Positions 1,772-64,000 of a DNA stretch of 64,000 nt are shown one piece after another. Source of the stretch: Halomonas sp. (GTDB taxonomy: Bacteria; Pseudomonadota; Gammaproteobacteria; Pseudomonadales; Halomonadaceae). The stretch spans positions 1 to 64,000 of the forward strand of contig NZ_JAFWFN010000002.1 of NCBI RefSeq assembly GCF_017515565.1, written 5' to 3'. The position numbers were made by a program, and so were the translations under genes. The notes beneath the pieces are model-generated. The model worked only from the letters and a program-made list of their open reading frames with translations, searched no databases and was not told where the DNA came from. The first letter of the stretch is position 1. Each line of letters begins with the position of its first letter.

Positions 1772-3724
1772 ATGCCCATTGCACGAGCGGAGCACTGGTT
1801 ATCAGTCACTGCTGCCTGCTTTGCTATTACGCTTGTTGTGATGCAACCCAGCGTTACCTCAATAGCGCTCGTGCTGTTAGCGCTAAGCTTGCTATGCGCT
1901 CAAAAAGATCGCTTACTACTTGCGAGCCTGCTCAGCGCTGGGACGATTAGCGTTTTGCTACCGGGACTTATCAGCTACCTTATACCGGAAAACTGGGTAA
2001 CAACGGCCCGCTGGCAGGCTCTGGCCGCTTGGCTGTACCCCACAAGCTTTGAGCGCTTCCGGGCACCGCTACTCATGACCCTGGCTTTACAACTGAGCGC
2101 ATTAGCACTCCTGCTACGCCATCGAGTGCGCTTAGGCGCACCTCTATTCCTGATCATGGCGGCTCTACTTATCGGTCTACAGCTCATCAACCATCACTCG
2201 ACGTTTCCACCTCTTCTTCGCTACGCGGCCCACTGGCCCAGCCTACTAACACTTAGCATAATGCTACTTGGGCAATGTCTTTCAACAACGCAGCACTGGC
2301 GCAACAAACGCTGTTTAGCGTGCGCGCTTTGGCCAGCCTGTGGATTGCTCATCGCAACATTGCTACTTTGGAAACAGCTACACCTTGAAGCTGAGCAAAA
2401 ACTGCATCTTCAGGTTGCAGAGCGAGCCCAGCAAGCAACGACACGGCTCTCCCAAGACATAGATAACCACTTAAATACAATGCGCCGTTTTGCTCGCATT
2501 TGGCAGCTGCAAACAGTGCCCCCTAACTACCAGCAGTGGACCGACTTAGCCGCCAGCTACCAGCAAGATTTTGCTTACTTAATTAATATCGCCTTTATCT
2601 CACCAGACAGCGGCATGCGCCACGTTTACCCCTTTACAGAAACCAATTTAATCAACATCGGGCTGCGTCTTTTCGATGTACAGCCAGAAGGACGTATCGC
2701 CCTTGAGCCAGCGCTAAAGGGGCTACAAGAGGGCAACACGGATATTATTGAGCTACTGCAAGGTGGCCCAGGTATCGTGCACTACTTCCCCGTATTTAAT
2801 GCAGAAAGGGTACCTTTGGGCGCAGCAGCAATGGCTGTAAGCCTTCCCTTATTTGCTGAGGAACTGTTTACGCAGTTGCCTGCAAGCCAAGGGGCAATAC
2901 AGTGGTACAACGACACTCAAGTGTTGGCAGAACATGGAGACACTACCGACCCAGGCCCTTGGGCATACCACTATCCCATTCATTTACTAGATAAATCACT
3001 GACCCTTTCTTACCAACCGCGGCACCAATACCTGATTAGCCAATTACCTCGGCTACCCTCTATCAGCCTAGTTACTGGCTTAACCCTTGCCTATCTACTC
3101 TACCTCGTGCTCTACACGTTTCAGCGCTTAGGACAGCAACATAGTGCGATGCAAAAAAGTAACACCGCGCTTCAACAAGAGATCAAAAAGCGCAGCAAGC
3201 TACAGCAAGAAATTGAGTGGCTAGCGCGCCATGATGAATTAACCGGCATTGCCAATCGTCGGTATTTTCTGGAACAGATGGAGACTGCCCAAGCGATACG
3301 CCCCACTAGCTTAGTCCTGTTTGATATCGACCATTTCAAGCGGGTTAATGATCAAATGGGACACCTCGTGGGGGATGAATACTTGTTTGCTTTCGCTAAG
3401 CTGGGCGAGGCAATTATCGAACAGCACGGCGGCGTATTTGCGCGTTACGGCGGCGAAGAGTTTGTCGCCTGGCTACCCGGCCACACCCTCTCTTCGGCTT
3501 ATAACGTAGCGGATGAACTACGCCAACGACTAGCAGCATCCAATCTCACCCATGCCGATGGCACCCCAATCACGCTCAGCGCAGGAGTTGTCACGCTGAA
3601 TCATCCCGAAACCCCAGATATGGCGCGTATGATACAAGCCGCCGACGAAGCGCTTTACAATGCTAAGCACCGCGGGCGCAATCGTATTGAGCGTGGCACG
3701 CTTAATGCTCGTGAAGATGTTTAA
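1772..3724 (+). CDS. Membrane-anchored diguanylate cyclase (GGDEF)
   Basis: A 650-residue predicted c-di-GMP synthase. The first ~200 residues are strongly hydrophobic, with six or seven likely membrane helices. A roughly 250-residue region follows that is probably a periplasmic sensor, then one more helix near residue 425-445 (LVTGLTLAYLLYLVLYTF) and a short coiled coil. The C-terminal catalytic domain has DELTGIANRRYF, DIDHFKRVND and the active-site GGEEF at residues 560-564. The RxxD product-inhibition site expected just before GGEEF is not seen; those positions read Q-H-G-G. Its stop is 3 nt from the convergent tadA stop. The sensed signal is unknown. Confidence 0.88.
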   Translation: MPIARAEHWLSVTAACFAITLVVMQPSVTSIALVLLALSLLCAQKDRLLLASLLSAGTISVLLPGLISYLIPENWVTTARWQALAAWLYPTSFERFRAPLLMTLALQLSALALLLRHRVRLGAPLFLIMAALLIGLQLINHHSTFPPLLRYAAHWPSLLTLSIMLLGQCLSTTQHWRNKRCLACALWPACGLLIATLLLWKQLHLEAEQKLHLQVAERAQQATTRLSQDIDNHLNTMRRFARIWQLQTVPPNYQQWTDLAASYQQDFAYLINIAFISPDSGMRHVYPFTETNLINIGLRLFDVQPEGRIALEPALKGLQEGNTDIIELLQGGPGIVHYFPVFNAERVPLGAAAMAVSLPLFAEELFTQLPASQGAIQWYNDTQVLAEHGDTTDPGPWAYHYPIHLLDKSLTLSYQPRHQYLISQLPRLPSISLVTGLTLAYLLYLVLYTFQRLGQQHSAMQKSNTALQQEIKKRSKLQQEIEWLARHDELTGIANRRYFLEQMETAQAIRPTSLVLFDIDHFKRVNDQMGHLVGDEYLFAFAKLGEAIIEQHGGVFARYGGEEFVAWLPGHTLSSAYNVADELRQRLAASNLTHADGTPITLSAGVVTLNHPETPDMARMIQAADEALYNAKHRGRNRIERGTLNAREDV

Positions 3725-60166: not shown

Positions 60167-61270
60167 ATGAAAAAAATGACAAAATTCGCCCTAACAGGCC
60201 TTGCGGCTGGCGTTGCCTTCGCCGCACTCACCACTACCGCTCAGGCACAAGAACAGTGAACAATGACCTCCACTTGGCCCGACAACTTAGACCTAATTAA
60301 AATCGATCAGCACTGGGCTGAGCTAGTTAACCAGCTTGCCGGTGATGAGCTACAAATCAATTTCCGCGCGGGCGGCACGTTAATGCCTGGTACTGAGGTA
60401 TTTGATGCCACTGAAACCGGCAGTATCGAAGCCGCGGGCGACTGGCCAGGCTATTGGGCTGGCACAAACCCAGCTTTCTCGCCACTAGCCACCACTACCA
60501 GTTTGTTTAACGCCGTTGACTATATTAACTGGATTCAGCGGTGGGGCGGCCGTGAGCTCTACGAAGAGATCTACGGTCAGTACGACATGATGTACCTGCC
60601 TTATGCAGCGCTAAATAATGAGTCTGGCTTTATGGGGCGCACCCCCATTGAGAGCCTCGCTGACTTGGAAGGTAAGCGACTGCGCCTCTCTGGCCGCGAC
60701 CAGGGCCGTGTACTTGAAGAGCTAGGCGGCTCTCAGGTCACACTCGCTGGTGGCGAAGTGTACCAAGCCATTGAGCGTGGCGTTATCGATGCTGGCGAGT
60801 TCTCAACCCCCGGCGTTGACTACAACGCAGGCTTTGCAGAAGTAGCTGATTACTGGGCCACCCCCGGCTGGCACCAGTCTGCTAGCGTCTTCGGGGTAAT
60901 GATTAACATGGACGCGTGGAATGCTCTCACCGAAGAGACCCAGCAGAAGCTAAGAATCGCTGCGGACGCCACCATGGCTTGGTCGCTGGCGTGGTCTGAG
61001 CGTGAATCTACCGATGCAACCCAGAAGTTTATTGACGCGGGCGTCACCATCAACCAGTTCTCAGAAGAGGATCTGGAGCGCATTCAGCAAATCACCAACG
61101 AAGTGATCGTACGCGGCGCGTGTGAGAACACTGATCACGCGAAAGTCTATCACTCCATGGTTAGCTACCTGGAAGACTACGCTAAATGGCGCGACATCTC
61201 TGCGCCATTCAATATGAGCCGCACCATGGACAACCTGCCCTCATTGGAAGAGATCGAAGCCTGCCTATAA
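60167..61270 (+). pseudogene. dctP: TRAP transporter substrate-binding protein DctP, interrupted by an in-frame TGA
   Basis: The reading frame starts at ATG 60167 (AGGA about 7 nt upstream) with a typical signal peptide: MKKMTKFALTGLAAGVAFAA ... TAQAQEQ, then TGA at 60257-60259, then TMTSTWPDNLDL without a frame change to the stop at 61270. Homologous proteins have Trp at this spot (EQW-TMTSTWP), so a TGG-to-TGA change fits. The 336-residue mature part has the DctP fold (LEGKRLRLSG, AIERGVIDAGEF) and looks intact. Without read-through, the product would be a 30-residue signal peptide fragment; restart at ATG 60263 would give a cytosolic protein. Sequencing error is possible. Confidence 0.85.
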
Positions 61271-61282
61271 GGCGCTTCTGCG

Positions 61283-61311
61283 CCGCCCCGGTTCGCCGGG
61301 GCGGTTTTTTT
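61283..61311 (+). terminator. Hairpin with T-tract between dctP and dctQ
   Basis: Stem CCGCCCCGG, TTCG tetraloop, complementary arm and seven T: a textbook rho-independent terminator inside the operon, 23 nt before dctQ. It likely attenuates, making binding protein in excess of membrane subunits. Confidence 0.88.
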
Positions 61312-61333
61312 GTGCTGACCGCGGAGATCTTCC

Positions 61334-61837
61334 ATGAATGCGATTGCCAAGGCGATCGATGCGATTAACGAGTTATTCGGGCGAATCGTTGCTCCGTTAA
61401 TTGCCATCATTACCCTCATTGTTCTTTTTGACATTGCGTCACGCTTTTTCTTTGGGCGTCCCAGCGACTGGGCGTTCGATGTGACCAAAATGCTCTTTGG
61501 CGCCCATTTTATGCTGATGGCTGCCTATGGGTTACGCCACCACGCCCATGTTGAAGTAGACGTCATCAAGCGGTTGCTGTCCCGTAAGCGCCAAGCATTA
61601 GTTGAGGTAATCGGTTATCTGGTTTTCTTTGTTCCCTTTATCTGGATGCTGCTGACCTTCGGCTGGCGCTTCTTTGAACGCTCCTTTAGCCGTGGTGAAA
61701 CCACCTATGGCATGGTGTCGATCCCGGTTTACCCCGTTAAGGGCGTCATTGTAGTGGCCGCGGCACTTCTGTTGCTGCAGGCAATTGCCATTGTACTGCG
61801 GGCCATTATGCAAATGCGCGAGGAGAAATCAGTATGA
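61334..61837 (+). CDS. dctQ: TRAP transporter small membrane subunit DctQ
   Basis: 167 residues with four membrane helices. The start IDAINELFGRIVAPLIAIITLIVLFDIASRFFFGRPSDWAFDVTKMLFG has the DctQ pattern (conserved R-x-x-F..G, W..E/D). Links binding protein to the DctM channel. Its stop overlaps dctM by 4 nt. Confidence 0.93.
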   Translation: MNAIAKAIDAINELFGRIVAPLIAIITLIVLFDIASRFFFGRPSDWAFDVTKMLFGAHFMLMAAYGLRHHAHVEVDVIKRLLSRKRQALVEVIGYLVFFVPFIWMLLTFGWRFFERSFSRGETTYGMVSIPVYPVKGVIVVAAALLLLQAIAIVLRAIMQMREEKSV

Positions 61838-63165
61838 ATCTGAGTCCTGAACTACTTGCGCTAGTGATGTTTGGCGGGCTGCTCATCGGCCTTTTTATGG
61901 GTCATCCGCTGGCCTTTGTACTCGGCGGCGTGGCCGTAATCGGCGCGTTTTTAGGCCCGGGTGAGCGCGTACTAGGCACACTGATTAACAACATTTTTGG
62001 TAATGCCATGGACAACTATGTCCTGGTGGCTATTCCCCTATTCGTATTAATGGCGAGGTTTCTTAACGACTCAGGCGTCACGGAGAAGATGTTTGATGCC
62101 ATGCGCCTGCTGCTTGCCAATCTACGGGGTGGCTTGGCGCTCACGGTCGTTATTGTATCGGTGCTGTTGGCAGCGACTACCGGCATTGTTGGGGCATCCA
62201 TTGCAGTGATGGGCATGATCGCCTTAGTGCCGATGCTTAAGTATGGCTACAACAAAGAGCTAAGTGCTGGCGTCATTATGGCCAGCGGCTGCTTAGGCAT
62301 TCTTATTCCCCCCAGCATCATGCTGATTTTAATGGCTAGCTACTCGCCTGTATCTGTCGGTGCGCTGTTTGCTGGCGCAATGATCCCGGGTTTAATGCTC
62401 GGCGTTATGTACGCACTGTACGTGCTGCTGATCTGCCATTTTAAACCTTCTTACGGCCCGCCAGTGCCCAAGGAGGAGCGTGCGGAAGTGAGCACCAAGC
62501 AGCTGCTTATTATGCTGGGTAAATATGTTGTTCCACCCATGTCGTTAATCTTAGGCGTACTTGGCGCGCTGTTCACCGGCATCGCTACTGCCACCGAAGC
62601 CTCTGCCATTGGGGTGTTTATCGCCTTTATTCTGTTTATGATTTTTGGCGATCGGAAGATCAAAACCTGCTACAACACGCTGATTGAAGCAGGCAAGACC
62701 ACCACCATGGTAATGCTGGTACTGGTAGGGGCCACTGCGTTTACCGGGGTGTTCTCGCGCGGCGGCGGTATGCAGGTAATTCAAGATTTGCTGCTAGCCA
62801 TGCCGGGTGGCACCACCGGCGCGCTGATTATGATGCTGTTCTTAGTGTTTATTCTGGGTATGTTCCTAGACTGGACAGGCATTGTGCTACTCAGCTTCCC
62901 GATTATGCTGCCCATCGTCCAGCAGATGGGTGTTGACCCGCTCTGGTTCGTGGTAATGGTGGCCGTGGTTCTTCAAACCTCGTTCCTCACCCCGCCGTTT
63001 GGCTATGCGCTGTTCTACTTAAAAGGGGTGGCACCGCCAGGGGTAGAGATCGTCGATCTTTACAAAGCGGTTATCCCCTTTGTAGCGCTGGTTCTACTAG
63101 CTTGCTTGTTGATGTCGTTCTTCCCGTGGCTGGTAACCGGGCTACCTAAAATATTGCTAGGGTAA
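61834..63165 (+). CDS. dctM: TRAP transporter large permease DctM
   Basis: 443 residues, about 12 membrane helices; sodium-coupled transport subunit. Seen: LIGLFMGHPLAFVLGGVA, VAIPLFVLMARFL, the repeated GIVGASIAVMGMIALVPM and SGCLGILIPPSIMLI motifs, and FLTPPFGYALFYLKG. Intact. Likely substrates in the related family are C4-dicarboxylates, 2-oxo acids or similar acidic solutes. Confidence 0.95.
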   Translation: MNLSPELLALVMFGGLLIGLFMGHPLAFVLGGVAVIGAFLGPGERVLGTLINNIFGNAMDNYVLVAIPLFVLMARFLNDSGVTEKMFDAMRLLLANLRGGLALTVVIVSVLLAATTGIVGASIAVMGMIALVPMLKYGYNKELSAGVIMASGCLGILIPPSIMLILMASYSPVSVGALFAGAMIPGLMLGVMYALYVLLICHFKPSYGPPVPKEERAEVSTKQLLIMLGKYVVPPMSLILGVLGALFTGIATATEASAIGVFIAFILFMIFGDRKIKTCYNTLIEAGKTTTMVMLVLVGATAFTGVFSRGGGMQVIQDLLLAMPGGTTGALIMMLFLVFILGMFLDWTGIVLLSFPIMLPIVQQMGVDPLWFVVMVAVVLQTSFLTPPFGYALFYLKGVAPPGVEIVDLYKAVIPFVALVLLACLLMSFFPWLVTGLPKILLG

Positions 63166-63260: not shown

Positions 63261-64000
63261 TTAACGGCGCACGCTGGCCCTGACAATGGGCGTCACTGGC
63301 AGCACCTTATGCTCACCCGCCACATGGCCGCTGGCAATTTGGGCTAACAGTAATGATGTAGCTTCATCCACCATTGCTTCTATAGGTTGCTGCACCGTGG
63401 TTAGCTGATAGCTTGGCCACGCCGCTACCGGGATATTATCAAACCCCACCACCGCCACATCCTCGGGCACCCGCAAGTCCATTTCCGCTTTTAACGTGTC
63501 GATCACGGCTATTGCCATATGATCATTCGCGGCAAACACCGCATCCGGGTAGACATCGGCCGTGAACAGCTCACGCGTTACTGCTTGAGCGGTGGCGAAC
63601 TGATAGTCACCTCGCGCCTCCGCCCAGCATGCTCTTCCATGGGCCGCCAGAGCATCCAGAAACCCTTGCCGACGCTGGCTACTAGTAGACGATTCGGCTA
63701 ACCCGGCTATAAAGGCAATCCGCTCGCAGCCACGCTCAATCAAAAACTCACCAACCCAGTAGCCGCCGTGGTAGTTGTCGCTGGCGACTTGACTGACGCC
63801 TTCAAACGCAACGGTACGATTGATCATCACAACCGGAATACTCCGCGCCACACACTCGCCGGCAAAAGACGAAGAGAGCGTCGCAGACAGCATCAAAATA
63901 CCATCCGCCTGGCTTTGTAAAATTTCAGCCATGACGCTGGCTGACTCTTGCTCATCGCTACTCATAAACAGAAGCAGGTGATAGCCATGCTGCTGAAAAC
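63261..64000 (-). CDS. LacI-family transcriptional regulator, C-terminal part
   Basis: The frame is open to the right edge, so the N-terminal DNA-binding domain is outside the window. About 246 residues of periplasmic-binding-type effector domain are present: ILQSQADGILMLSATL, IPVVMINRTV, VASDNYHGGYWVGEFLIERG, AFIAGLAESSTSSQRRQGFLDAL, VFAANDHMAIAVIDTLK, VPEDVAVVGFDNIP, LTTVQQP. Located past dctM on the opposite strand; a likely local regulator of the dctPQM genes. Its ligand is unknown. Confidence 0.9.
   Translation of the reverse strand, partial: FQQHGYHLLLFMSSDEQESASVMAEILQSQADGILMLSATLSSSFAGECVARSIPVVMINRTVAFEGVSQVASDNYHGGYWVGEFLIERGCERIAFIAGLAESSTSSQRRQGFLDALAAHGRACWAEARGDYQFATAQAVTRELFTADVYPDAVFAANDHMAIAVIDTLKAEMDLRVPEDVAVVGFDNIPVAAWPSYQLTTVQQPIEAMVDEATSLLLAQIASGHVAGEHKVLPVTPIVRASVRR

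Follow-up and report, generated by a model that had tools for sequence, protein, structure and literature searches.

What does a lone in-frame TGA mean when it stands at a tryptophan position of an otherwise well-kept receptor gene? In the stretch of Halomonas sp. DNA analysed here (64,000 nucleotides, called the window throughout), such a codon interrupts dctP, the gene for the binding protein of a TRAP transporter. It may be a mutation, an error in the assembled sequence, or a codon that the cell reads. A single in-frame stop in a draft genome is, by itself, of little consequence; before recoding is claimed from it, sequencing reads are needed, and TGA, TAA and TAG must all be counted inside the genes of that genome. 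If the stop is real and efficiently read, the gene would provide a natural test of how leaky UGA is in species other than E. coli, a property reported in one study to differ more than hundredfold between species (PMC9481147).

The operon and its interrupted frame

The locus is an ordinary TRAP transporter operon, dctP-dctQ-dctM, in a genome of the Vreelandella/Halomonas group: a binding protein with the PF03480 domain is adjoined by a small and a large membrane subunit. Its features are as follows.

60167..60256, forward strand: signal-peptide part of dctP before the stop, 30 codons; start region the same in orthologues, cleavage place by motif only
60257..60259, forward strand: in-frame TGA, a Trp (TGG) position in 80 of 80 orthologous loci; from the sequence and the orthologue alignment
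60263..61270, forward strand: remainder of dctP up to the TAA, an open frame with the complete domain of a TRAP binding protein; from the ORF and a profile match
61282..61305, forward strand: terminator-like hairpin between dctP and dctQ; consensus match only
61334..61837, forward strand: dctQ, small membrane subunit, open frame; PF04290, E 5e-25
61834..63165, forward strand: dctM, large membrane subunit, open frame; PF06808, E 7.2e-81

The dctP frame starts at ATG 60167, with AGGA upstream, and encodes a signal-peptide-like N-terminus ending in TTTAQA/QEQ. TGA interrupts it at 60257-60259, so no uninterrupted frame leads from signal peptide to mature receptor. Thereafter the frame is open as far as the TAA at 61268-61270, and this post-stop part, an ORF of 335 aa at 60263-61270, matches the Pfam DctP profile PF03480 over positions 16-279 of 286 (E 3.3e-38). 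An earlier note, made from the letters of the window, had described the same arrangement, with a signal-peptide start at 60167, the TGA, and the same frame running to 61270 through a complete DctP domain; it had also called dctQ and dctM intact. Both descriptions agree with the profile matches and the open frames.

The hairpin in the gap between dctP and dctQ has 10 pairs and a T run. Two such terminator-like hairpins were found, against a mean of 1.4 in shuffles, and this one could raise the amount of receptor above that of the membrane subunits. Beyond dctM, convergent with the operon on the minus strand, lies part of a LacI-type regulator (Peripla_BP_3, 63261-63998) that is cut by the window end and possibly regulates the TRAP operon.

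The tryptophan codon and the history of the allele

The orthologue set comprised the best 80 of 115 relatives, and at every one of these 80 loci the codon aligned to the TGA is TGG. In 79 of them this tryptophan takes the fourth place behind the last [AV]xA motif. Of 275 genomes of the family, this one included, 160 matched in a pattern scan, and TGG stands in every foreign match among the matches listed. Furthermore, the window and the sister genome (G001) differ along 60203-60286 (84 bases) by a single base, which falls in the TGA codon. The earlier note had given a tryptophan just after the cleavage site as the family's usual residue and had proposed comparing close strains at this codon; the orthologues bear the residue out. 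In dctP a conserved sense codon is thus replaced by a premature stop in frame, the mark of a nonsense pseudogene. The place of the TGA alone carries little information, since it is one of 127 single-base nonsense changes possible in the frame.

Over 60287-61400 dctP is 82.5% identical to that of the sister, whereas the nearby flanks reach about 91-96%. Per kilobase of the window, identity to the sister is mostly 92-97%, falling to about 80-87% in dctP from about 60.29 to 61.4 kb, where two genomes that are otherwise more distant come about as close as she does. In the dctM tree this genome pairs with its sister (support 1.0). In contrast, in the dctP tree it pairs with L011 (0.987), and the sister groups with L016 and L017 (0.795). 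The drop in identity and the conflict between the two trees together indicate that homologous recombination exchanged the dctP allele in at least one lineage. The exchange more likely occurred in the lineage of this genome, because the sister's dctP groups nearer that of L014, which follows as the next relative of the two genomes in the tree of dctM. The left breakpoint lies inside the 84-base tract in which the TGA also stands.

The remainder of the gene, past the TGA, shows no decay. The dN/dS ratio of the post-stop part is 0.020-0.051 against 12 relatives, and among eight pairs of relatives it is 0.013-0.057. Of the columns that do not vary among 34 relatives (239) or among all 80 (153), DctP deviates at none. 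A recent duplicate that might relax selection was not found among the 13 matches in the genome, the next paralogues being 30% and 29% identical. With no decay behind it, the stop must be very young, not real, or not effective. The earlier note had read the undamaged frame as a sign of a recent lesion or a sequencing error, and both measures are in line with that.

Stops inside other genes

Is dctP alone in this genome? A filtered dicodon scan sought stops with coding sequence on both sides (its unfiltered version was swamped by antisense frames) and covered 1,445,352 of 3,755,276 bases, on 14 of 86 contigs, some incomplete. It yielded 44 candidate stops (TAA 26, TGA 12, TAG 6), and 675,000 bases of the sister genome yielded 19 (TAA 13, TAG 4, TGA 2). 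Judged by eye rather than by a calibrated test, seven of the 44 are internal to a gene (TGA 2, TAA 3, TAG 2) versus none of the 19. Most of the others were taken as junctions of neighbouring genes, and several of the 44, for example those at C32 108837 and C25 11625, were left unclassed as internal or junction. By our own arithmetic, seven against zero has a probability of about 0.07 under equal rates in both genomes. The seven are listed below; for the six besides dctP, the two pieces were searched separately against profiles, with the result given.

dctP, window 60257-60259, forward strand: TGA
AcrB-family gene, contig C61: TGA; pieces match PF00873 513-702 and 718-983
ABC exporter, contig C17: TAA; pieces match PF00005 2-33 and 37-137
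P-type cation ATPase, contig C73: TAA; pieces match different domains in the usual order
tgt, contig C46: TAG; pieces match PF01702 2-120 and 123-355
Solute-binding protein, contig C25: TAG; looser, PF01547 9-70 (below the curated cut-off) and 98-307
GGDEF-EAL protein, contig C25: TAA; pieces match PF00563 6-96 and 100-181

The case of the P-type ATPase rests on conserved sequence around the stop that we take to be unbroken. For two of the seven, the TGAs in dctP and the AcrB-family gene, the original codon was determined, and both are Trp in the sister. If UGA were read as Trp throughout a genome, TGA alone would be expected inside genes. Here all three stop kinds occur there, which fits scattered single-base changes or base errors rather than UGA read as Trp. 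That both TGAs replace Trp speaks for read-through, though weakly, there being two cases.

Open reading frames were also compared with those of the sister. Sister ORFs were matched at 80% or more in 280 of 848 cases within the examined sequence of this genome, and seven stops lay deep in the alignment. Two of these were counted as lesions, those in dctP and the AcrB-family gene; four, in three ORFs, are close to likely start sites (residues 27-41); the last, in a 164-aa ORF on C25, belongs to neither group. The dctP stop is also early (residue 31), but the part upstream of it is a signal peptide common to the orthologues. With a shorter ORF limit 116 were matched, and five ORFs on C61 had stops, in addition to frame splits; only the AcrB-family case was deep inside a gene. 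Over the contig to which the window belongs, the window included, an in-frame stop was found in one of 60 matched sister ORFs (dctP), and two more were split or shortened. The reverse comparison matched 279 of 1153 ORFs and placed four stops deep in sister genes, one of these in the gene for a 650-aa GGDEF protein; this gene is open here (window 1772-3721), but in the sister it is broken by a stop and by a deletion.

Mutation, error or read-through

The TGA is, with high confidence, an ordinary nonsense lesion, real or apparent, a single-base change at the conserved Trp codon of dctP. To a real, recent mutation we give slightly more than an even chance, and to a base-call or consensus error, which would leave dctP intact in the cell, somewhat less than an even one. 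In a relative-rate test on 45 genes (16,903 codons), this genome has 64 private amino-acid changes versus 105 in the sister, of which 4 and 14 are radical, and 318 private synonymous changes versus 357. Thus no excess of private amino-acid changes was found here, and the result does not favour an error, with low power because seven nonsense codons imply only few extra missense changes. If the mutation is real, translation would end after 30 codons, leaving the transporter without its periplasmic receptor. We infer that dctP has lost its function, that the change is recent and that translation ends at this UGA in the ordinary way. Without read-through no periplasmic receptor is likely to be made, since the in-frame ATG at 60263 lies past the signal peptide, and the earlier note's expectation that the transporter would lose its periplasmic component follows by the same reasoning. 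Against an ordinary lesion, the lack of decay is equally expected of a gene that is still translated, and Trp is the residue replaced at each of the two TGAs in the set of seven, a set that was chosen by eye.

The next alternative is a leaky UGA, misread by the normal tRNA-Trp often enough for part of the DctP to be made in full length and exported, which would make the allele tolerable. We consider it improbable. The position is Trp, the gene is undecayed, and misreading of UGA in E. coli is described as inserting mostly Trp (PMC11126739). Read-through of UGA was measured at 12% in E. coli, as against 0.08% and 0.04% in two Pseudomonas species (PMC9481147). The decoding machinery of this genome has an ordinary look. 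Its tRNA-Trp has the anticodon CCA, the only such form among 23 scanned loci of 54 tRNA matches, and the sequence has a single match in this genome; in 81 other genomes of the genus it is 100% identical in 65 and 97% in 13, with weak matches only in 3. RF2 is present with a full open frame (501 bits), and its residue preceding SGAGGQ is Ser, at the place where the weak E. coli K-12 variant differs. That native K-12 RF2 is reported to have reduced function, and with the more active B variant E. coli terminates rapidly at UGAA (PMC5373646). In dctP, too, the base after the TGA is A.

In addition, TAA and TAG also interrupt genes here, so an in-gene stop need not be read. A functional level of read-through at the dctP UGA is not to be expected, some leakiness aside, and the read-through that the earlier note had kept as an option finds no recoding machinery to lean on and has TAA and TAG stops inside other genes against it. 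There is, by our estimate, a small chance that the TGA is real, fixed in the strain and read as Trp by the ordinary tRNA-Trp at a rate that sustains a functional, exported DctP, as a tolerated leaky allele in a halophile with a lower dose of receptor; such an allele possibly arrived together with the recombined part of dctP, which has its left edge at this codon.

Less probable still is that translation terminates at the TGA and starts anew at ATG 60263, which would give a binding protein without signal peptide and with a cytoplasmic role. The ATG lies one codon past the stop, and the ORF that it opens covers nearly the full domain. Against this, the Met at 60263 is the family's ordinary conserved Met of a WTMT motif and no new start, no clear ribosome-binding site precedes it by eye, and a TRAP binding protein that is not exported cannot serve its transporter.

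UGA as Trp throughout the genome, or selenocysteine at dctP, is close to refuted: the second in-frame TGA, in the AcrB-family gene with Trp in the sister, speaks for the former, but TGA makes up only two of seven internal stops, the sole tRNA-Trp is unchanged with CCA, RF2 is intact, neither tRNA-Sec nor SelB has a match above cut-off in this genome (weaker SelB matches are present), and the RNA surrounding and following the stop has no more structure than shuffled sequences (z 0.43). A selenoprotein or a UGA-recoding organism was rejected on this ground.

Among known systems, the solved structure nearest to DctP in sequence is TakP (PDB 2hzk/2hzl, E 9.7e-38), a TRAP receptor for alpha-keto acids. 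By the numbering of cation-site residues given for it (PMC1839085), the Glu aligned to TakP Glu214 is kept in DctP, whereas in the same alignment Phe stands at Trp215 and Gln at Glu240. Since two of these residues differ, no substrate is named for DctP and it is not filed as a TakP-type alpha-keto acid receptor.

The leaky UGA of E. coli, as described in PMC9481147 and PMC11126739, resembles the present case in having UGA at a Trp position and an ordinary tRNA-Trp. It differs in that UGA may be read far less by species that lack the weak RF2 of K-12, and in that DctP is known from sequence. Bacterial nonsense pseudogenes, in the terms of one review (PMC11078800), share with dctP a premature stop in a gene that is otherwise well conserved; dctP differs from them in its single stop and its lack of decay, and is on that account either a very young pseudogene or only an apparent one.
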